Source: a virus | IMG/VR virus record: IMGVR_UViG_3300025879_000089 | Span: 1 to 26,402 of that record | Length of the DNA: 26,402 nt | Reading direction: 5' to 3' (one strand) | Part shown: positions 953 through 26,382 of the stretch, piece by piece | Layout of the letters: every line of letters begins with the position of its first letter | Numbering within the stretch: position 1 is the stretch's first letter | Notes under the pieces: model-generated | Told to the model about the DNA's origin: nothing | What the model saw: the letters and a program-made list of their open reading frames with translations, nothing else | The model's database searches: none | Program-made: the position numbers and the translations under genes

Positions 953-961
953 TTATATATT
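953..961 (-). promoter_or_regulatory. Weak candidate phage promoter (AATATATAA)
   Basis: On the minus strand this reads AATATATAA, one base different from the GATATATAA motif found upstream of three other genes in the window. It sits in the 36-base gap before the partial fibre gene, 22 bases from its ATG, at the same spacing as the other copies. In AT-rich DNA this single match could be chance. Confidence 0.35.
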
Positions 962-4324: not shown

Positions 4325-7300
4325 TTAAGCTTGTATTTTCACATAAGCTTTCAATTTATATTGATAGCCTATTTTTTTATTATATATTAGTCTAAAACTA
4401 AGACTATCATTTTGATATTTCTGTATTTCATAATTAGTTAATGCCATATATCCGTCTGATGTTAAATCATTAGGATCTATTACTGAAATAAATTCAGTTC
4501 CTATATTTTTACCTTCAATACCGTATAATTCTATTTTATCTACAATAAATCTATTTACTATATTATTAACAATATATTGCTGTAAATCATCATCGATAGA
4601 ATCTTTTTCACCAAAAGAGTTTTCAGCCTTTAAATAATTCTTAAATACACCTCGTATACCATCTTCTAATAGTTCATCTATAATTGAAGAAGGTAAATAA
4701 AAGTCAGCAAAAATTTGAGAATCGGTTTCAGCCCAGTGTATTGTTGCTTTATTAAGTAAATTAATTCTAATATAATCTAAAGATTCTAATGAATTTTCAT
4801 TAATAGATAAAAATGAAGTTAATTCATAAATATCATTTACTTTCATTACAGTCGATGCCATAAAAGATTTAACTTCAACAGGACTTAATGTACCATGTGC
4901 ATTTATACTACGACCGGCTGGTAAATTTTTAGTAAAATATACTGAAGAATATTTAGATCTAAAAACATTTAAATCTTTTTTATCAATTGCTATTTCACCA
5001 ATCGCAGGATATAATGGTAATTTATCTGATGTTTGTGATAATTTTAATAAGTTTTTAACGTTCTCATCATTTACTTTATGATAAAATACATTTTTTAAGA
5101 AACCATATTCATTAGAATTCTGGTTAATTAATTTATATGATTCAAATGCAACTCCTAAATTATTAAACTTATTATAGATTAAATAATCTCTTTCATCATC
5201 GAACGTTACTTCATTAAGCTCTACATTATCTTTACTTGGAATTATTAATTTTTGATTTGTTAAAATATCCCCGAATGTCACAACATCTCTAAAAAGAGGA
5301 ATATAATTTCCATTCATTCTTCTTAATTTTGTAAAGTAACCACCATCATCTCTCATTTTAATAACTTTACCTATTTCATCAGAGGATAATTGATAAGATT
5401 TTGGTCTATCACCATCTGATTTTTTAGTAGTTAGAGATGCTTTTATAATTTCAGTTCCATCTTCAACTTCGAAGACAAACCTATTTTGATATTCACCAGT
5501 TTCATCAACTGTTAAATAATTAATATCTCCAAATTTATTAAATCTATCTACAAAATTATAAGCAACAATTTCTTCTAGTAAGTTATTATAACCACCAGCA
5601 CCACCCTGCCAATAATAATAATCCGTATTTAAAGGTGTAGATTTTAAATCTGTTAAAGGTGGCACACCTGTATCTAGGCCGGAAAAATCTTGCGTGAACG
5701 CTCTTGGTAAACCTTCTACTATTACTCTAGTATCATCAATTATATTAATAACTTTCATACCGTAGGGCCCTGTAGGTGCTTTAAATACAATCCAAGAATA
5801 TACACCATCATTATTTAGTTTTATATAATTTGTGAATTTTGGTGGATTTACATCACTATTTAATGATGCCGCCGCAGCATATAATATATTTTCACCGGTT
5901 TCAGACCAGTTTATAGGTGCATCATTTGAATCATAACCCAATCTAATTAAAAATGGAATATTAGTATCTTCTATATTACCATCCTCTTTTAAAATATCAT
6001 TTAATTCATAGCACGATTTACGATCAATATCTATTTTCTTAGTATCTTCAATAACAGTTAATGTAATAACCACACATATAAATTTATGAATATCGTTTTT
6101 AATTACATCGTAAGTTACTAAATTACTTTCTCCAAATTTATAATCAAATGTAACACCAAATCTATAGTTATTAACTTCTGTTGAATTAATAAATTCTGTT
6201 GGTGCTTTTTTTAAGTATTCCTTTCTTTTCTTATAAATATATCTTAACCCTCTAAAAACGCTTGTTGGATTAGAAACACCAGTACCTCCGCCAAATATAC
6301 TATATAATTTTTTACTATTATCATCTACCCAGATGTTATTATCTTCATTAAAATTACCATTTCTATTAAAATACATAGAAAAATAATCTATTTTAGTAGA
6401 TTTTAATTGGTCTAATGTAATTCCACTTTCACTATTTTCAAATGCGGTATAAGAATCTAGGCCTGTTAATGTATTTTCAGTATAAAAATAAGAAGGAATC
6501 TTATTAATATGAAAATGTTCCATGTTTAAATGTTCTGGATTCCTACCAGAAGTAATTGTTATATTCGGTGATAAGTTATCACTACCAAATGCCTCATTTA
6601 CATTTAAGATATAAGGTAAATTTCTAGCATTAGTTGCATTTTTTAATGCAAATTTCATAATAGTAGGTATAACCCTACTTCTAACCGCAGTTTCTTTTAA
6701 ATTATTTTCATCTAATCTATCATATTCAGATTCAATATACTCATTAGAAACATCTGTATCAATATCATCAGAATTTAAAACAGGTGTTAATCCACTAAAA
6801 TAATCAATTGAATCAAAATCATCATTGGATTCATATACTAAATCACCTAAGCTAGAATTTGAAGTATCATAAAAATCAAAATTAAAATCCTTTAAATTAT
6901 ATGCACTAAATTTACCATGCTTTGGTTTATGTAACTCATATACTTCTATTAAATTATCATTAGAAACTTTAACAGGTTTATCAACAATAATCCTCCAAAG
7001 ATTAACATCATAAGCATCTTGAGTTATTTCTTTAATTTGTGTATATTGATTTAAATTTTTACTCTTTAACCATTGACCTATTTTAATATCTCCTAATTCA
7101 CTTTGATTAACTATAAACATTGCACCCTCTTTAGAGCCGCCAACAGAAGTAAATATATTCCATTTAGAAAATTTTTCAGGATCTGAATCTAAAAGGCCTA
7201 TATTATCTAAATTACCAGCCTCAACATCTATAAAATCAATAAGATTTGTTTTATAAATTCCTAGTGCAGTACGTCTTCTATTGTATCCAGCGCTAATATC

Positions 7301-8767
7301 TTCAATAATAATTGAATTATTTATAACAGTTGTTTTATATGTTAATACCTCACTTAATTTTATTGAATTAGATAACGCAATTGCAATTTGAACCAAAGTA
7401 CCTTGTGTTGAAAATCTACCCCTTTCACCAGTTCCAGCTGGAAGTAATGGATCTGCTAAAAACGTATAATCACCTAAATTATATTTAGAAATTTTAAGTT
7501 CTGTTTTATCTGCAATAAAAACTCTATCATTAGGAGATGGTGTATCTTTAATAGTTAATTTTAAAAAACCCTTAGCTGATGTTTTATTATATAAAGTCTC
7601 AATAATATTACCAGTCGATACATATCCAGATAAGTTTTTTATATCACCATTAATAGACACTGGTAATTTTAAATTGCCAAAAATAGTATTATTTTTAACA
7701 TGGTGAAATTTACCGTATTTATCCTTAATATAATTTAAAGTTGGAATTTTTAAATCTTCATATTTAGGAAGCATATCTTCAGCATTTAATGAAGTATCTA
7801 CTAAATCATAATTAGTTTCATAACTATTAAGTTTAATGTATATTAAGCCATCTTTAGTGATATTATCTATATCAAAAGATCCTTCATCAAATGAATCTAC
7901 ATATAAACCAAAATATCTATAAATATGATAATCTTCAGCAGTTGTATCATCAAATAAAAATTCTAAATTAATTAAATTTGCTGAAATAATACCATTCTTT
8001 TCAAAACCACTAGTTAAATATTCATTAGCAATAATTTCAGGCTGATCAACTATTAAATAATCTTTGGTTATATTTACGTCTTTACTAACAAATCCACCGT
8101 TTATAGTATCAATACCATTATAAGATGTTGTACTATTAGAATCAAAATTAAATGATATTGGAGCCGATGGAAACCCAGAAGAATATACGTGGTTATGTAA
8201 ATAATCGCCTAAATTAGAACCTCTCTTAAGGTCATAATTTTTAATAATAGTAGCATCTTTAAGAAGTTCTAAAATTCTATTGTTTTGACCTAAAATATCT
8301 TCTGAATAATTTTTAGAATAATCAGTATTTTTAATTCTATAAATTACAAAATTTGATGGGATTTTTTTATCTAACCAAATAGGGGCTAATAATTTATATT
8401 GTTCATCATATAATTTAGTAGTATTAAAAGAAGCACCATAATGATATTGATCTTCAAATTGTTTGCTATATTCATCATACGCTGTTAAATCTGATAATTT
8501 CCTTAATGTAAAATATCTTTCACTTAAAGGTAAATTATTATAGAATCTACGCACATCATTAGAGTAAGTTCCATTAGATTTAATATCAAACTTTTGATAT
8601 TGTATCTTAGATAATGATTTATTAGCTTTAAAAGAACTTAAAAACAATTCCTCATTTGAATCTACTACTAATTTAATATTACTAGTAAACTTAGGATTAG
8701 TTCTTAATAAAGCAAATGAAGCATTATCAACTATATTATTAGAAATATTGAATTCAGTTGTAGCCAT
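4325..8767 (-). CDS. Very large structural protein, probable baseplate/tail component (1480 aa)
   Basis: At 1480 residues this is the largest gene in the window. It has no signal peptide or membrane segment. I do not recognise a named domain. The N-terminal 150 residues (KFTSNIKLVVDS, YHYGASFNTTKLYDE, LAPIWLDKKIP) look like a conserved opening module that I associate, from memory only, with large structural proteins of T4-like phages of Bacteroidota. The rest is Asn/Asp/Ser/Thr-rich with alternating hydrophobic residues, as expected for a beta-rich virion protein. It lies between the 1227-residue protein and the fibre gene, so a peripheral baseplate or fibre-attachment role is inferred from position. 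A 64-base gap upstream carries a promoter-like GATATATAG 23 bases before the ATG. Function is unassigned. Confidence 0.9.
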   Translation of the reverse strand: MATTEFNISNNIVDNASFALLRTNPKFTSNIKLVVDSNEELFLSSFKANKSLSKIQYQKFDIKSNGTYSNDVRRFYNNLPLSERYFTLRKLSDLTAYDEYSKQFEDQYHYGASFNTTKLYDEQYKLLAPIWLDKKIPSNFVIYRIKNTDYSKNYSEDILGQNNRILELLKDATIIKNYDLKRGSNLGDYLHNHVYSSGFPSAPISFNFDSNSTTSYNGIDTINGGFVSKDVNITKDYLIVDQPEIIANEYLTSGFEKNGIISANLINLEFLFDDTTAEDYHIYRYFGLYVDSFDEGSFDIDNITKDGLIYIKLNSYETNYDLVDTSLNAEDMLPKYEDLKIPTLNYIKDKYGKFHHVKNNTIFGNLKLPVSINGDIKNLSGYVSTGNIIETLYNKTSAKGFLKLTIKDTPSPNDRVFIADKTELKISKYNLGDYTFLADPLLPAGTGERGRFSTQGTLVQIAIALSNSIKLSEVLTYKTTVINNSIIIEDISAGYNRRRTALGIYKTNLIDFIDVEAGNLDNIGLLDSDPEKFSKWNIFTSVGGSKEGAMFIVNQSELGDIKIGQWLKSKNLNQYTQIKEITQDAYDVNLWRIIVDKPVKVSNDNLIEVYELHKPKHGKFSAYNLKDFNFDFYDTSNSSLGDLVYESNDDFDSIDYFSGLTPVLNSDDIDTDVSNEYIESEYDRLDENNLKETAVRSRVIPTIMKFALKNATNARNLPYILNVNEAFGSDNLSPNITITSGRNPEHLNMEHFHINKIPSYFYTENTLTGLDSYTAFENSESGITLDQLKSTKIDYFSMYFNRNGNFNEDNNIWVDDNSKKLYSIFGGGTGVSNPTSVFRGLRYIYKKRKEYLKKAPTEFINSTEVNNYRFGVTFDYKFGESNLVTYDVIKNDIHKFICVVITLTVIEDTKKIDIDRKSCYELNDILKEDGNIEDTNIPFLIRLGYDSNDAPINWSETGENILYAAAASLNSDVNPPKFTNYIKLNNDGVYSWIVFKAPTGPYGMKVINIIDDTRVIVEGLPRAFTQDFSGLDTGVPPLTDLKSTPLNTDYYYWQGGAGGYNNLLEEIVAYNFVDRFNKFGDINYLTVDETGEYQNRFVFEVEDGTEIIKASLTTKKSDGDRPKSYQLSSDEIGKVIKMRDDGGYFTKLRRMNGNYIPLFRDVVTFGDILTNQKLIIPSKDNVELNEVTFDDERDYLIYNKFNNLGVAFESYKLINQNSNEYGFLKNVFYHKVNDENVKNLLKLSQTSDKLPLYPAIGEIAIDKKDLNVFRSKYSSVYFTKNLPAGRSINAHGTLSPVEVKSFMASTVMKVNDIYELTSFLSINENSLESLDYIRINLLNKATIHWAETDSQIFADFYLPSSIIDELLEDGIRGVFKNYLKAENSFGEKDSIDDDLQQYIVNNIVNRFIVDKIELYGIEGKNIGTEFISVIDPNDLTSDGYMALTNYEIQKYQNDSLSFRLIYNKKIGYQYKLKAYVKIQA

Positions 8768-8789: not shown

Positions 8790-8798
8790 CTATATATC
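8790..8798 (-). promoter_or_regulatory. Candidate phage promoter (GATATATAG)
   Basis: On the minus strand this reads GATATATAG, one base from the GATATATAA found before three other genes. It lies 23 bases upstream of the ATG of the 1480-residue protein in one of the few real intergenic gaps. It overlaps an 8-base inverted repeat (8789-8796 with 8806-8813). Confidence 0.5.
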
Positions 8799-21088: not shown

Positions 21089-22381
21089 TTATATTGGTGT
21101 TGATAGTATTATTTCAGTTTGATTAAATACAGTTGTCTTTTTATCGTATCCTCCCTCTCGGAATATTCCTCCATTCATTGTTCCTTTAAAAGAACCCTTT
21201 CCATAAACATAACAATCATCAGTTACAACACTACGATGAACGTACGAACTTTTAAGTTTTGATGTTGTTATTTGTGATGAAGCATAGAAGTTACAAGAGT
21301 CAATATCAGAACCCTCAATTTGACACGTAAACATATCACAATATCTAAACTCTCCTCTTAAAAAACAATTGACAAAATCATAACCATCTAGATCAACACA
21401 GTAATCAAGTCTTCCATTTTGCACTTGAATCCTGCCAGTGTCTGAGTCATAATTGATGTGACCCTTACTAAAATTACCATGTGTGAATAATTTTATAACT
21501 CGTTGTTTAATATTGCTCCAGTATAAAGAAACTATTTTAGGGTCATCTTTGAGATCTACGGTAAATTTAGTGTCTTTCCAATTTTGAGATATTGTTTTCC
21601 AGTCACTTCTGGCGTCAATTATTCTTTGATTGTTAGAAATTATCCTTTTAAGTTCAATTGCATTGAGTTCTGTAAATTGAGTCGTTTCAGTTGAATTCCA
21701 TAATTGAATTAAAAATCTATCAATAAGGTGTAATATTGTAGTAGTTTTCTTTTGCCAATCCTTTCCACCAACATATCTAAATTCAAGATAATTTTTATGT
21801 CTTTTTTCAAAATTGATACCATAATATTTTGAATCAGGGTAGATAAAGTTTTGTTGGTTTATATGTTTTCCATCAAAAAATGAAACATCATCCTTTGGTA
21901 TAACAAATTTAATTGATTTTGCATAAGCTGAATCCTCTCTTTGTGGAAAAAACTTAAACACTTGCTCTTCATTAAAATCTAGGATAAACTTAAGAGTGTT
22001 CATCTTAGAGATTCTATATTTATTGTCTATTTTATTTTTGTCAAAAGAAAGATTTAAATGAATTGAAGATCTGTCATTAGTATACCCATTCTCATCAATC
22101 CATTGGTTAACTTTGATAATCATTAAGCGTGCGGCAAAATATGGAAGTGCCCCGGTAACAAGCTCCATAAGCTTTGCACCGCCGCTCATATCTGGTTCTA
22201 TCTTAAACTCATCTTGGGTTACTTCAAAGTCACTGTGTGCTTTTTCCTCAATACGAATTTTTTTACCAATAAGTTCCGCAATTTGCTTTGAAGTTTCTTC
22301 TATACTTAAATTTGAATAAAATTCAAATTCCACACCAACAAGCGCATTTTCAAGTATTTTAGAGTCATTTAAGTTATTCAT
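21089..22381 (-). CDS. Probable amidoligase with C-terminal beta-helix-like tail
   Basis: Residues 12-205 carry motifs of the amidoligase / carboxylate-amine ligase fold related to glutamine synthetase and gamma-glutamyl-cysteine ligase. These are GVEFEF (G16, E18, E20), EPDMSGG with MELVTG (D64, S66, E73), SIHLNL (H108) and LEFRY (E200, R202). In that fold such Glu, His and Arg residues bind metal, ATP and the acidic substrate. Such enzymes join a carboxylate to an amine using ATP. The substrate here is unknown. Residues about 324-420 (CVDLDGYDFVNCFLRGEF, RYCDMFTCQIEGSDIDSC) are short repeats like a beta-helix or pentapeptide-type tail, rich in cysteine. The gene starts a new unit after the terminator at 22452-22477 and has a promoter-like GATATATAA 31 bases upstream. 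It could modify virion proteins, but nothing in the sequence shows this. Confidence 0.75.
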   Translation of the reverse strand: MNNLNDSKILENALVGVEFEFYSNLSIEETSKQIAELIGKKIRIEEKAHSDFEVTQDEFKIEPDMSGGAKLMELVTGALPYFAARLMIIKVNQWIDENGYTNDRSSIHLNLSFDKNKIDNKYRISKMNTLKFILDFNEEQVFKFFPQREDSAYAKSIKFVIPKDDVSFFDGKHINQQNFIYPDSKYYGINFEKRHKNYLEFRYVGGKDWQKKTTTILHLIDRFLIQLWNSTETTQFTELNAIELKRIISNNQRIIDARSDWKTISQNWKDTKFTVDLKDDPKIVSLYWSNIKQRVIKLFTHGNFSKGHINYDSDTGRIQVQNGRLDYCVDLDGYDFVNCFLRGEFRYCDMFTCQIEGSDIDSCNFYASSQITTSKLKSSYVHRSVVTDDCYVYGKGSFKGTMNGGIFREGGYDKKTTVFNQTEIILSTPI

Positions 22382-22411
22382 TTATCGATATATTATTAAA
22401 CTACAGTTTGA

Positions 22412-22420
22412 TTATATATC
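22412..22420 (-). promoter_or_regulatory. Candidate phage promoter (GATATATAA)
   Basis: On the minus strand this reads GATATATAA, 31 bases before the ATG of the amidoligase gene and about 30 bases beyond the terminator. It lies within a 13-base sequence (22409-22421, AGATATATAATCA) also present before the S1 gene. T4 late promoters have a single -10-like element TATAAATA, and this motif resembles that type. Assignment as a late promoter is inference. Confidence 0.6.
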
Positions 22421-22451
22421 TCATTAAAATAATTATGTAAATATAAACAAA

Positions 22452-22477
22452 AACCCGAGACTAAAAAATCTCGGGTT
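22452..22477 (-). terminator. Rho-independent terminator after S1-domain gene
   Basis: A perfect 9-base stem (AACCCGAGA pairing with TCTCGGGTT) with an 8-base loop is followed on the minus strand by TTTGTTTATAT. It lies 27 bases beyond the stop of the S1-domain gene and is far more GC-rich than its surroundings. It should end minus-strand transcripts here. The plus strand also has a T-rich stretch a few bases on, but no plus-strand gene is present. Confidence 0.9.
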
Positions 22478-22503
22478 AATTATTTTTAAAAAGTTATTAA
22501 CAA

Positions 22504-23796
22504 TTATAGTTTTAGAAAAACCTTTCTTGTATCAACCTCAATTCTTGTAATTTTAACTGTGATTGTATCGTTCTTTTCAATTGAATCTTTATCAAATTCT
22601 TCTGGAAATTCAGAAACATGCAATAAACCTACAACACCTTCTCCAATATCTAAAAATACACCGTAATCTTTAATAGATTTAACAACACCAGCAACTTCCA
22701 TTGGGAACGTTGTATATTTTTCAGCGATTAATTTCCAAGGGTCAACTACTTCAACTTTTTCTATCTGTGTTAATGTAATTTTATTATTGCTAATTACCTC
22801 CTTAATCTTAAATTGAATCTCATCTCCTGGTTTAATTTCTCTTGCTTTATGTTTCTTAGCAGTTTCTGGATCAAGATCATTTGTATGAATCATTCCAGTT
22901 AAACAACCTTCAAATTCTACAAATACTCCATATTTTGCAGATCCAGTGACATTACCTGTTCTAGTAACATCCATATTAGCAGATACCTCTTCAACTTTAT
23001 TTGGAATCAATGCTTGTAAGTATTTTCTATGAGATACTACGATTGTTCCTTTTTCAGGAGAATAATTCATTGGTACAACATATAATTCAGTTCCAATAAT
23101 AGATTCAAAATCTACTAATTTATTAATTCCTGCAAGAGAACCTGGCATAAAACAATCTATACCTTGTACGTTTACAATATAACCACCGCCTTGAATCATA
23201 CTTAAAACCGTTGCAACATAAGCCGTGTTACCGTCTTCAATTGATTCTAGTAATTCTTTAGTAATTGCGGATTTAACTCCAGCCTCCACTGAACCAATAA
23301 TAAATCCTTTCTTATTAGATGTTCTGTCTCCTGTGATTTGAACTGAAATTGTATTTCCAGGAATTAATTTAGATTTAGAAGCCGATGACTCTCTAGATAA
23401 ATCAACATACACTAGTTCTCTATAACCAACGTCAATTGAACACCATTCCATATCTAGCGCATATATCTTACCCTCATGTGTCTCTCCAACTTTAATATCG
23501 AAGGTGGTTTGATTTTCACTATTGCTATAGAAGCTTTCCATTAAATCATATAACTCCTGTGCGTATGATTCTCTAGAATATACCTTGTCTCCATTTTTTG
23601 TTTTAATATGAGGGTTAGGTTTTCTAGTTGTTGATGGACATCCTGCAATATGTTCATCCCAATTAAATTCTTCAAGCGAAGGGTTTGCATTAATTGTGTA
23701 TGGAGTTTCTTTTGCTTCTTTTACAATAACTTCATCGTTAGTGTTTTCTGTAGAATCTTTGATTCTTAATCTTTTTGTTTTTGTGTCTTGTGACAT
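22504..23796 (-). CDS. Four-S1-domain RNA-binding protein
   Basis: This 430-residue protein has a polar N-terminal region of about 100 residues and then four S1 (OB-fold) repeats at about 102-170, 187-257, 275-345 and 364-430. The last two are the clearest: GNVTGSAKYGVFVEFEGCLT with GMIHTNDL, and GVVKSIKDYGVFLDIGEGVV with GLLHVSEFP, both with the canonical G-x-V-x-G-V-F-V/L pattern. The second repeat (GGGYIVNVQGIDCFMPGS, then VVSHRKYL) resembles the ribosome-binding half of ribosomal protein S1. Bacterial S1 has six repeats, so this is a shorter form. It probably binds single-stranded RNA and could act in translation of phage mRNA or in RNA protection. It lies inside a baseplate module, preceded by a promoter-like motif and followed by a strong terminator. 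Confidence 0.9.
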   Translation of the reverse strand: MSQDTKTKRLRIKDSTENTNDEVIVKEAKETPYTINANPSLEEFNWDEHIAGCPSTTRKPNPHIKTKNGDKVYSRESYAQELYDLMESFYSNSENQTTFDIKVGETHEGKIYALDMEWCSIDVGYRELVYVDLSRESSASKSKLIPGNTISVQITGDRTSNKKGFIIGSVEAGVKSAITKELLESIEDGNTAYVATVLSMIQGGGYIVNVQGIDCFMPGSLAGINKLVDFESIIGTELYVVPMNYSPEKGTIVVSHRKYLQALIPNKVEEVSANMDVTRTGNVTGSAKYGVFVEFEGCLTGMIHTNDLDPETAKKHKAREIKPGDEIQFKIKEVISNNKITLTQIEKVEVVDPWKLIAEKYTTFPMEVAGVVKSIKDYGVFLDIGEGVVGLLHVSEFPEEFDKDSIEKNDTITVKITRIEVDTRKVFLKL

Positions 23797-23830
23797 TTTT
23801 TTGTTTGTTAAAGTGTTAATAATTATATGA

Positions 23831-23839
23831 TTATATATC
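23831..23839 (-). promoter_or_regulatory. Candidate phage promoter (GATATATAA)
   Basis: On the minus strand this reads GATATATAA, 35 bases before the ATG of the S1-domain gene, in a 46-base gap. The 13-base stretch 23828-23840 (AGATATATAATCA) is identical to that before the amidoligase gene. The downstream leader ends in a run of A (ACAAACAAAAAAA before the ATG), as expected for Bacteroidota-type translation starts. Confidence 0.6.
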
Positions 23840-23842
23840 TAA

Positions 23843-25633
23843 TTAAATTACTAGTGGTGAAAATCCAACCATTGGAATTGGACTTACCGGGGTTGTAATT
23901 CCACCTAAGTATAAGAATTTTAATTTTAATAAATGTTTTGCACAAGCAACTGAAACAGCGCTTGCAACTGCCTTTGAAGCCACTGGTGTCAATGGTTGTT
24001 TGCTAAATCTTTTACCAGTATTCCATGCCCTTCTTAAATCATTTGCTAAAATTACTTCAGATCCATATGAAATTGGAGTATAAATTCCACCTAATGGCGG
24101 TTGTGTATTACATGGCGGTATTGGTGGTGTTTTCTTAAATGGCTGCACTGCTGTGCTTTTCCAATAATCAATAATTGCTTTAGCCATTATATTATATCCA
24201 TCGCTATTTATTATAGTTTCACCTCTTTCATTTACATTTTTTGAATTACCCCATTTTCTAAGTAATTCCCACCATAGCTCTTTCTCTTTTTTATATAATC
24301 TTTCTTTTTTACGAATTCTATCAAGTTCATCCCAGCTATCCCCCACATTAACAAGTCTAGCCCGTGTAATAGAATCTACAAGTTTAATGTATGTAAATTT
24401 ACAGATATAGCCATCTGTTGTTAACCATTTTGGTATAGTGATTGGATCATCCTTATGTTGGCTTTGGAAAATATATTCATTTAAAGTATTTTCACTCAAT
24501 ATTCCAAGTTCAATTAATTGAGAGGTATCGGGTATTTTATTTCGAATTGTAGTTTCTACTTTTATTTCGAATTTTTTTTCTAGGGCTCTTAGATTACTAG
24601 GCGTCATATACCTTGTTCTTGATCTTGAAAACATTTCACTTCTTAGTTTTTCTTCTTCAGATTTATAATAACTTTCAATTAAATCTTCAACCCTTTTTGC
24701 AACTTTAGCGCCTAATTTATCATTTCTAGAAATAGCTAAGCGTTCTACCCAGATTTTAAATTCTTCAGAACCGTCACATTGATGTAAAACCCTATCAGCT
24801 AAGACTTCAATAGTCTGCTCTTCTGTTAATTCTGGGATTAGTTGACGAGGAGTCTTACCTTCATTTGGGTCTTTGACAACATTAATCGTGTCGACTTGAC
24901 CCTCATCACCTATTGTTACAGTCGCTTCTTTATTAATTTCTTTAATTAAATTATCATTTAAGTCAAATACGCTCTTAAAAATATAATCATATGTTCCTGG
25001 CGTAGTATCTACTCTAACTTGTAATATTCCATCATCACTTGCAGGCGATAGAGGCTGATCAATACCATTGATAGAGTATAGGAATTTATACGCAACATCT
25101 GGTGTAAAATTTGCAATTGACATAGTTGCATATAATATCCCATCACTACTATTTTCAATTTGAGATGCGGCATCTTGTTGATTTTGACTAATTATTAGGT
25201 CAAAATCAATACCCGCGTAAATATCTATTTCCTTGTATGGAGGACATGTAGATGGAAACATTTGATAAAACCTAAACTTTTTTAAGTTTTCTTCATTATT
25301 TTTAGTCCATTCTTCAATTTCACAAAGGGGATCAAAATCAAAATTGTTGTTAGGTAGAGGTTCAAAGAAATCCGAATACCTTGACATTTCAAATTTATTC
25401 TCAAACTTGATTGTTTCATTTTCATAAATTTCTCTGAAGGCTGCTTTAAATCCGGTTTCTAAAATACGTTTATCGCCAGAAACATGTTTATTTCCAAATA
25501 TAGTTTGAGAACTCTTAACGGCCTTAAAATACTCATTTGCTAAAAATATAGCAAATTTATCTCTAGTCTTTGCATTTCTAGATTCTAATTTTTTAGAGAC
25601 GTTTTTAACAAATGTTGGCCATTGTGCCGGCAT
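23843..25633 (-). CDS. Unrecognised probable virion protein with Ig-like domain (596 aa)
   Basis: I recognise no named family. Residues 1-75 form a helical module (WPTFVKNVSKKLESRNAKTR, FLANEYFKAVKSSQTIFGN). Residues about 165-242 are a beta-sandwich-like, Ig/PKD-type domain (YATMSIANFTPDVAYKFLYS, VRVDTTPGTYDYIFKSVFDL). Residues 260-465 are largely helical and highly charged. A proline-rich linker at 500-514 (KTPPIPPCNTQPP) leads into an unusual C-terminus at 515-596. That C-terminus alternates small residues with Ile/Leu/Pro (GGIYTPISYG, VASKAVASAVSVACAKHLLK, GGITTPVSPIPMVGFSPLVI). It follows the gp5-like gene after a 29-base gap, so a hub or tail role is inferred from position. It starts at ATG 25633, 20 bases after a GATATATAA motif. 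Confidence 0.88.
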   Translation of the reverse strand: MPAQWPTFVKNVSKKLESRNAKTRDKFAIFLANEYFKAVKSSQTIFGNKHVSGDKRILETGFKAAFREIYENETIKFENKFEMSRYSDFFEPLPNNNFDFDPLCEIEEWTKNNEENLKKFRFYQMFPSTCPPYKEIDIYAGIDFDLIISQNQQDAASQIENSSDGILYATMSIANFTPDVAYKFLYSINGIDQPLSPASDDGILQVRVDTTPGTYDYIFKSVFDLNDNLIKEINKEATVTIGDEGQVDTINVVKDPNEGKTPRQLIPELTEEQTIEVLADRVLHQCDGSEEFKIWVERLAISRNDKLGAKVAKRVEDLIESYYKSEEEKLRSEMFSRSRTRYMTPSNLRALEKKFEIKVETTIRNKIPDTSQLIELGILSENTLNEYIFQSQHKDDPITIPKWLTTDGYICKFTYIKLVDSITRARLVNVGDSWDELDRIRKKERLYKKEKELWWELLRKWGNSKNVNERGETIINSDGYNIMAKAIIDYWKSTAVQPFKKTPPIPPCNTQPPLGGIYTPISYGSEVILANDLRRAWNTGKRFSKQPLTPVASKAVASAVSVACAKHLLKLKFLYLGGITTPVSPIPMVGFSPLVI

Positions 25634-25653
25634 AATAGATATGTTTTATAGAC

Positions 25654-25662
25654 TTATATATC
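25654..25662 (-). promoter_or_regulatory. Candidate phage promoter (GATATATAA)
   Basis: On the minus strand this reads GATATATAA immediately after the stop codon of the gp5-like gene and 20 bases before the ATG of the 596-residue protein. It is identical to the copies before the S1 and amidoligase genes, and the preceding base A is shared as well. Confidence 0.55.
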
Positions 25663-26382
25663 TTATTTATTTATTTGTTGATAATCCTCGTGTGTGCTAC
25701 TTAATTGACTAATTGTCGCAGGGGTTGCTCCAACTGGAGTACCAGAAGGACCTACTCCAGTTGGATGAAAATGAGTTTTATAATCATCTAATAGTTTTTG
25801 TAACCATTCTTGTAATGATGCACCTCGAACTACAGGTTCTGTTTCATCTTCACTACCTTCACCAGTATTAGAAAGAAATACATTACCAGCATCTAAGAAT
25901 ATCTTTTCATCTGTTGTTATTTTGATAAAACCTTGTTCGTCAATTTGAATTAGCGGTCTCTCTTTAGCGCCGCTTCCTCGAGTAATTACCAGACCGTCCT
26001 CTGGCGAGTGATAGATTCTAACATTTCTTACAGAATCATAAACTAATGAAACAACATCTTGTGGTGCAGCAGAAGGGTCTAAAATATCAGCCTTTAATGC
26101 TTTACTTTGATTAATTTGAAACCAATACTCTGGATGATAGATATTACCATTGTCAAATCTAACTGCAACAACAGTCCCAATATTTGGAATTGAATGAGAA
26201 CCAACATGGTCACGATTCATTGGAGTAGCCCATGGAATCGCTTCACTTGGAAGGTCATCAAATTTACCAAACACCTTTACTCTACATCTCCCTAAATTAG
26301 AAGGGTCCGCATTATCTACGACCTCTCCAATCCAATGAGTGTCTCTTATTTTATTTTTTCCAGCTTCTTTCCCAATACTCAT
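25663..26382 (-). CDS. gp5-like baseplate hub/spike protein with OB-fold, no lysozyme domain
   Basis: Residues 16-88 match the N-terminal OB-fold of the T4 gp5 / gpV spike family: WIGEVVDNADPSNLGRCRVK, IPWATPM, IGTVVAVRFDNGN, PEYWF. Residues 110-170 are beta-strand repeats (VRIYHSPEDGLVITRGSG, IQIDEQGFIKITTDEKIFLD) that probably form a short trimeric beta-helix. Residues 188-220 (ASLQEWLQKLLDDYKTHFHP, then TGVGPSGTPVG) match the H-x-H and GPSG-P ending common in spike proteins. At 239 residues it is less than half of T4 gp5 (575) and has no muramidase domain between OB-fold and helix. It should sit at the centre of the baseplate and form the membrane-piercing spike. Only 20 bases upstream are visible, with AATATATAC at 26391-26399, 9 bases before the ATG. 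Confidence 0.9.
   Translation of the reverse strand: MSIGKEAGKNKIRDTHWIGEVVDNADPSNLGRCRVKVFGKFDDLPSEAIPWATPMNRDHVGSHSIPNIGTVVAVRFDNGNIYHPEYWFQINQSKALKADILDPSAAPQDVVSLVYDSVRNVRIYHSPEDGLVITRGSGAKERPLIQIDEQGFIKITTDEKIFLDAGNVFLSNTGEGSEDETEPVVRGASLQEWLQKLLDDYKTHFHPTGVGPSGTPVGATPATISQLSSTHEDYQQINK

Follow-up and report, generated by a model that had tools for sequence, protein, structure and literature searches.

What does it mean that the same 10-base word, AGATATATAA, stands in the gaps before three genes of one virus stretch, the full 26,402-base (b) IMG/VR record IMGVR_UViG_3300025879_000089 (hereafter the window)? If it is a promoter of the phage's own, which factor would read it? We consider, with a probability of roughly 0.8, that AGATATATAA serves a group of large T4-related phages as the -10-type box of their late promoters, at which a gp55-like sigma factor would direct transcription to start about 12 nucleotides (nt) after the G of the box. 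Because the window is the whole of its record, genome-wide enrichment was measured in relatives.

A repeated box before three genes of the window

The long genes of the window all lie on the minus strand and encode, among others, T4-type baseplate and fiber proteins, an amidoligase and an S1-domain protein. The three genes in question and the copies and near-copies of the word are as follows.

21089-22381, minus strand: amidoligase-like gene (family match to Amidoligase_2, PF12224), ATG at 22381
22504-23796, minus strand: S1 RNA-binding domain gene (family match to PF00575)
23843-25633, minus strand: 596-residue gene without a family match
22412-22421, minus strand: AGATATATAA, predicted late promoter of the amidoligase gene, conserved as a motif in relatives and holding the 5' arm of a leader hairpin
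22408, minus strand: predicted +1 of the late amidoligase transcript (A, 12 nt past the G), from the +12 rule below with the base checked
23831-23840, minus strand: AGATATATAA, predicted late promoter of the S1-domain gene, predicted +1 about 23826
25654-25663, minus strand: AGATATATAA, predicted late promoter of the 596-residue gene, predicted +1 about 25649
8790-8798, minus strand: GATATATAG before the 1480-residue gene (4325-8767), a probable late promoter; the 1500-residue counterpart of this gene in the relative G007 is preceded by GATATATA
953-961, minus strand: AATATATAA, probable variant late promoter of the partial fiber gene (ATG at 931), a common variant in G007

The shorter word GATATATAA occurs exactly three times in the window (22412-22420, 23831-23839 and 25654-25662), always on the minus, i.e., coding, strand and always preceded by A, which makes AGATATATAA the correct 10-mer. 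An earlier note, made from the letters of this DNA alone, had placed it in the gaps before the amidoligase, S1 and 596-residue genes, 20-35 bases from the ATG; the distances from the end of the 10-mer, 30, 34 and 20 nt, respectively, agree. The same note had correctly observed that two of the copies, here those of the amidoligase and S1 genes, have AGATATATAATCA in common, and that near-copies precede the 1480-residue gene (GATATATAG) and the partial fiber gene (AATATATAA). It had noticed no exact copy inside genes on the coding strand; none was present there on either strand. At the 596-residue gene, the first A of AGATATATAA is also the last base of the preceding stop codon. For the 1480-residue gene, a tblastn search among relatives yielded no leaders.

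Near-matches with at most one mismatch are not enriched in the window (24 compared to 34 expected from shuffles), and their raw count was dropped as evidence. It is the placement of the motif, not its raw count, that stands out and argues against chance: sense intergenic positions make up 0.75% of all strand positions in the window, and other words with the composition of GATATATAA fall there 26 of 937 times, compared to 3 of 3 for GATATATAA itself (P about 2e-5).

Enrichment and conservation in relatives

The named relatives of the window amidoligase are six records of uncultured giant phages, with LR756500.1 (462 kb, 40% identity) the nearest, and the protein is encoded by 193 IMG/VR stretches, 80 of which were kept as loci. 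Seven long records were analyzed, namely G007 (236 kb), G005, G014, G004, G009, G002 and LR756500 (W01); counts over loci include orthologues, which inflate them. With ends that are 92-95% alike (1-2097 and about 233190-236071; L085, L096), the G007 contig probably represents an almost complete genome, of about 233 kb and closed by a strain variant.

In the 80 loci and the window, 111 of 126 copies of GATATATAA fell into sense gaps at most 60 nt before genes, a space of 27,311 out of 2,841,938 strand positions (less than 1%). Among the long records, the copies in gaps before genes numbered 16 of 28 in G007, 12 of 21 in G004, 7 of 18 in G005, 10 of 13 in G014, 20 of 39 in LR756500, 4 of 11 in G009 and 9 of 13 in G002, i.e., 36-77%, compared to 2.2-6.0% for other words of the same composition. 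The promoter proposal of the earlier note would have fallen without upstream enrichment; GATATATA is in fact the top upstream-enriched 8-mer in five of the seven long records. In the loci, GATATATA has 4.8 occurrences per kb before genes compared to 0.40 for the T4 octamer TATAAATA, which is only weakly raised there.

When the unique leaders of relatives were compared gene by gene, the box (GATATATA or AATATATA) was present in 34 of 36 for amidoligase, 25 of 31 for S1 and 12 of 24 for the 596-residue gene; for five operon-internal genes of the window, it was present in 1 of 38, 0 of 27, 0 of 41, 3 of 40 and 3 of 42 leaders. The box marks operon starts and hardly any internal genes. In LR756500, GATATATAA is enriched before genes as given above, yet the amidoligase leader is without the box.

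Three promoter classes

An unsupervised motif search in G007 returned TTATATTTACAT and nATATATAAT, and reading of the gaps separates three classes. Class E is TATATTTACAT in G007 and LR756500, with another form, TATTAGTATAGT, in G014; class M is TGAAAC followed, after 14-20 nt, by a TATAAT-like box; class L is GATATATA or AATATATAA with nothing conserved upstream. No information amounting to a -35 element was found upstream of the class L box at 24 sites in G007, 19 in G014 and 33 in LR756500. The 135 gaps of at least 18 nt in G007 comprise 25 of class E, 12 of class M, 25 of class L, 3 with both E and L and 70 unassigned, the class patterns having been picked after the data were seen and one M gene being counted twice at the overlapping ends of G007.

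The proteins encoded after each class were scanned with PHROG profiles. In class L, 20 of 28 proteins were scanned, counting the three E-and-L genes, and the matches included the head protease, tail fiber, tail tube and tail sheath, four virion proteins whose genes carry the box in this seemingly near-complete genome. Class M (9 proteins) gave the replicative helicase, the single-strand binding protein, the clamp loader and a gp55-like sigma factor. Class E (10 of 25 proteins) gave an exonuclease, a sigma factor resembling those of the extracytoplasmic function (ECF) type, DNA repair, a phosphoesterase and phosphoribosyl pyrophosphate synthetase, along with tRNA nucleotidyltransferase, DNA ligase, a helicase-like ATPase, endolysin and a deoxyribonucleotidase-like protein. 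Counting proteins of named function alone, those of the virion make up 4 of 6 in class L and 0 of 14 in classes E and M together (hypergeometric, 15/4845 = 0.003). Class M elements were seen before clamp loader, single-strand binding protein, helicase and gp55-like genes in G007 (L085-L096) and G014 (L115-L123), and this class shares its TGAAAC start with the second promoter class, TGAAACG, of phage CBB (PMC5259590).

A box TAnnTTTG has been reported for Bacteroides and Flavobacterium (PMC2483708), and the likeness of the class E element to it fits a Bacteroidota host. This bears on an explanation in which the late box is itself the -10 element of ordinary host promoters, read early or constitutively by sigmaABfr or another host sigma factor, with no phage sigma needed. 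Bacteroidota host promoters likewise have an AT-rich -7 box, and the same genomes contain, in TATATTTACAT, a clear class near the host TAnnTTTG (PMC2483708). That class, however, is distinct from the box and stands before other genes, and the box has no information at -33/-35, is carried by virion genes and occurs together with a conserved gp55-like sigma gene. Altogether, we regard reading by a host sigma factor as improbable.

A short gp55-like sigma factor

A dedicated, gp55-like sigma gene had been predicted by the earlier note. T4 gp55 belongs to PHROG 234, and when this profile was run on the seven long records, it matched one frame in each of six, with E-values of 6.5e-9 to 1.7e-12. G009 had no match to PHROG 234; it also had none to T4 gp43, gp46, gp47 and uvsX, with gp41 weak and gp61 matched, and this record probably lacks most of the replication region. 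The gp55-like protein has 123-125 residues compared to 185 in T4 gp55, starts with KNYLNNKD where T4 gp55 has YNYVNNKE, and stops where T4 gp55 continues toward its linker and clamp-binding tail. It ends in a conserved hydrophobic stretch, GIYSI or GMFNI, that might stand in for that tail; the DNA polymerase ends in LIYSxSLF.

A structure model of the protein, built from 17 sequences with a predicted local distance difference test score of 76.7, had T4 gp55 (7d7c_F) as its best fold match (Foldseek E-value 3.6e-3, template modeling score 0.70), with a Z score of 13.2 compared to 9.9 for the next sigma domain. Fold comparison did better here than searching solved structures by sequence with the sigma alignment, which returned chance matches only. 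In G007, the gp55-like gene is itself in class M, a placement that befits a middle gene. As for a polymerase of the phage's own, a profile for cellular-type phage RNA polymerase (beta') matched none of six records, compared to 14 of 14 for the control.

Two features of LR756500 were observed alongside. On its minus strand (L135), the gp55-like gene (233216-233590) is followed by a 538-residue frame (231554-233167) that is missing in G007, G005 and G014 and ends in NAEIYSI, the same seven residues as the gp55-like protein; this frame resembles an insertion by which the end of the gp55-like gene was duplicated. The clamp loader gene (gp44) is in two pieces, 208139-208897 and 210258-210881, with about 1.4 kb between them, as an intron or intein would leave it.

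The long records also encode other sigma-like proteins. A second, ECF-like sigma gene with an early-type promoter lies at L095:10720-11334 in G007 and L115:1842-2441 in G014, and in LR756500 the gp55-like gene is accompanied by four further sigma-like genes. The box could be read by one of these instead (the ECF-like sigma of 204-209 residues in G007, or one of the four in LR756500), and the occurrence of such a gene in both G007, where it follows an early-type promoter, and G014 speaks for this. ECF factors normally require a -35 element, however, and none accompanies the box; moreover, the gp55-like gene is found in six of the seven records, and sigma region 2 (PF04542) came above the cut-off in only three of seven. 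We judge reading by an ECF-like factor to be no more probable than reading by a host sigma factor, and recognition by the gp55-like protein the likely case.

Predicted start site and leaderless genes

The seven records contain 140 GATATATA sites within 70 nt of a start; 4 lie inside the upstream gene, and 136 were analyzed. The distance from the G to the ATG is exactly 12 nt at 21 of the 136 sites, 14 at 2 and 19-63 at the rest, with none below 12 and none of 13 or 15-18. Where the ATG is 20-45 nt away, the base at +12 from the G is A at 85 of 102 sites. Counted without gene models, an ATG stands at +12 of 24 out of 221 GATATATA occurrences, compared to 0-5 at each of the remaining offsets between 8 and 20; wrongly picked start codons were considered as the cause of the spike and rejected, as it persists in this count. 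The genes at spacing 12 belong to about 15 families by blastp (22 genes listed, including one inside an upstream gene), and in 14 IMG/VR records the spacing-12 pattern had 31 matches compared to 5 at the control spacing of 13. Most simply read, transcription would start at +12, and in the 12-spaced genes AUG would be the first codon of the message.

In distant giant phages (735, 642, 636 and 635 kb, and Lak-A1), there was no spike at 12 nt (18 matches at 12 and 15 at 13), and LR756500 had 1 match at 12 and 0 at 13. The leaderless rule is limited to near relatives because the spike is missing from the distant phages. Among the window genes, none has the box at 12-nt spacing.

A 262-267-residue gene upstream of the amidoligase gene (L089:4704-5492 in G007, with orthologues in G004 and G005) was observed to have a terminator, an early-type element and GATATATAA 12 nt before its ATG. 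This arrangement may provide one gene with both an early leadered and a late leaderless start.

The leader hairpin of the amidoligase gene

The amidoligase copy of the box is also an arm of a hairpin, a role unseen by the earlier note. Three features make up this leader.

22387-22420, minus strand: GATATATAATCAAACTGTAGTTTAATAATATATC, inverted repeat GATATAT...ATATATC ending 5 nt before the amidoligase ATG, a predicted hairpin from its fold and the covariation of its arms
22435-22445, minus strand: TATATTTACAT, class E element upstream of the amidoligase late promoter, by the class E pattern
22452-22477, minus strand: predicted intrinsic terminator after the S1 gene, AACCCGAGA...TCTCGGGTT then TTTG, by sequence

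The window repeat folds at -6.4 kcal/mol, and at 0 once its 5' arm is cut away. Among 40 unique amidoligase leaders, 38 carry the box, and the hairpin arms covary (GG..CC, AG..CT and GAA..TTC). The minimum free energy averaged -7.31 with a leader's own arms compared to -5.20 (standard deviation 0.29) with arms exchanged among leaders, and 0 of 300 exchanges reached the observed value, a result inflated by the relatedness of the rows; L015 and L033, the two leaders without the motif, were omitted from this test. In a gapped MAFFT alignment of the leaders (32 of 40 rows), the arms fell out of register, and pairs were not counted from it.

The hairpin lies over the start region, and its 5' strand holds the predicted late promoter, which is the arrangement of T4 gene e. 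On read-through transcripts from earlier promoters, the amidoligase start region would be folded and occluded; late transcripts from 22408 would begin inside the hairpin and leave the start region free. By analogy to gene e, the hairpin may act as a block to translation. An early-type element lies in the leader itself in 4 of the 40 unique leaders, including that of the window, where it comes right after the S1 terminator, and 877-919 nt upstream in 19 of 40; none was seen in 17 of 40, including two with short flanks, and a strong hairpin is still present in several of the 17. At late genes generally, 14 of 89 leaders had z below -2, above chance, with orthologues included and the box not always paired. 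Because of these last two points, the hairpin claim is limited to the amidoligase gene.

The exact 12-nt spacing to the ATG at 21 sites and the amidoligase hairpin could both be read as signals in RNA, the motif then acting as a start-codon context, a ribosome site or a processing site rather than as a promoter. Most sites, however, lie 19-63 nt from the ATG with a broad spread, the A at +12 is kept even where the ATG is distant (85 of 102), the boxes stand at operon starts and not before internal genes, and a clade that lost the hairpin kept the box. Action in RNA is, in our judgment, very unlikely, less probable still than either of the other sigma factors considered above.

Weighing the late-promoter reading

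Chance in AT-rich DNA, to which the near-match count of the window would lend itself, is refuted by the enrichment in seven records together with the position, strand and conservation tests and need hardly be considered. From their position and spacing, it is close to certain that the boxes are promoters, and it is likely that these are late and read by the gp55-like protein. The proposal of the earlier note, a late promoter of the T4 type with its own sequence and a dedicated sigma factor, is supported by the upstream enrichment, the gp55-like gene, the lack of a -35 element and the virion genes behind the box.

Several results weigh against this conclusion. Copies of GATATATAA lie outside called gaps in 12 of 28 cases in G007 and 19 of 39 in LR756500, about half in some records. 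The class L box also precedes polynucleotide kinase and homing endonuclease genes, and 13 of the 20 scanned class L proteins have no family match, with one more belonging to a family of unknown function. The sigma gene is absent from the 26-kb window, its presence in this very phage being inferred from relatives. The gp45 profile (phrog_223) matched none of seven records and the gp33 profile (phrog_254) none of six; divergence may account for both, as gp44 is present. With regard to the hairpin, that of the window is AT-rich and weak (z -1.43), and the clade of L058, L060, L063 and L066, standing for 24 loci, has no hairpin; because this clade kept the box, the functions of box and hairpin are separable.

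In the mechanism we propose, the host core RNA polymerase with the minimal gp55-like sigma factor of the phage would open the DNA at GATATATA without a -35 element, and transcription would begin, mostly with an A, some 12 nt past the G. Such promoters would drive virion and other late genes, alongside an early, host-like class (TATATTTACAT) and a middle class (TGAAAC-N-TATAAT) for replication genes and the sigma gene itself. At some genes, the start codon would be exactly +1, giving a leaderless late mRNA. A wider proposal, which we advance tentatively and at slightly less than even odds, is that a large clade of uncultured T4-related phages uses a stripped-down gp55 (sigma domain 2 only, with no gp33 or gp45 detectable) on GATATATA, sets a number of its start codons exactly at +1 and so has part of its late program leaderless, and employs hairpins of the gene e type by which a gene can be translated only from transcripts of its late start.

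For phages known from metagenomes only, this would provide a late promoter code, a candidate sigma factor and start sites predicted to the single base, such that late and early genes become separable in raw sequence. The 12-nt spacing rule would reveal leaderless late mRNAs of this phage group from sequence alone, and if the sigma factor truly works without clamp tail, gp33 and gp45, it would represent a minimal version of a classic transcription system.

Comparison with known systems

The literature searched, which did not extend to subscription papers, held no printed description of the GATATATA box; on late promoters of huge phages, it yielded one paper, the jumbo-phage review PMC7824862. 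As far as that literature goes, four things are new: the GATATATA box, a gp55 of such short length, start codons fused to the box at exactly 12 nt, and the amidoligase hairpin. The moraphages, large phages of Bacteroidota with a sigma-factor gene in 24 genomes, resemble the phages studied here by description, namely in their range of sizes, in having Bacteroidota as predicted hosts, in T4-like genes for the virion and for replication, and in the sigma-factor gene; the one passage on promoters found in that article describes no late promoter (PMC12619734).

T4 late promoters consist of the octamer TATAAATA at -13 to -6 and depend on gp55, gp33 and gp45 (PMC2988020). Like them, the promoters described here carry a short AT box in the -10 position and lack a -35 element, and they have an AT-rich start region, virion genes behind them and a gp55-like sigma factor in the genome (PMC2988020). 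Unlike them, they have the box GATATATA(A/C/G) instead of TATAAATA and may be a variant that works likewise; the sigma factor has 123-125 residues, not 185, and ends before the linker and clamp-binding tail, some sites are leaderless, and gp33 and gp45 were undetected by PHROG profiles.

In T4 gene e, and also in soc, 49 and I-TevI, the late promoter encodes the 5' strand of an inhibitory leader hairpin (PMC3014915). The amidoligase leader is alike in that the hairpin lies over the translation start and late transcripts would lack its 5' strand (PMC3014915). It differs in the gene, which is amidoligase-like, in its occurrence in large phages and in a hairpin that is mostly A-U, whose effect on translation may be as in gene e.

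The jumbo phages CBB and GAP32 have the late motif ATAAATA (PMC5259590). They share with the present phages an RpoD-like class, a TGAAACG/TATA class for replication and a late AT box for the virion, as well as a gp55-like gene with gp33 and gp45 undetected; their late box is ATAAATA, in contrast to GATATATA here, and their hosts are enterobacteria (PMC5259590). Altogether, the system would be of a kind already known from T4 and, with ATAAATA, from CBB and GAP32.

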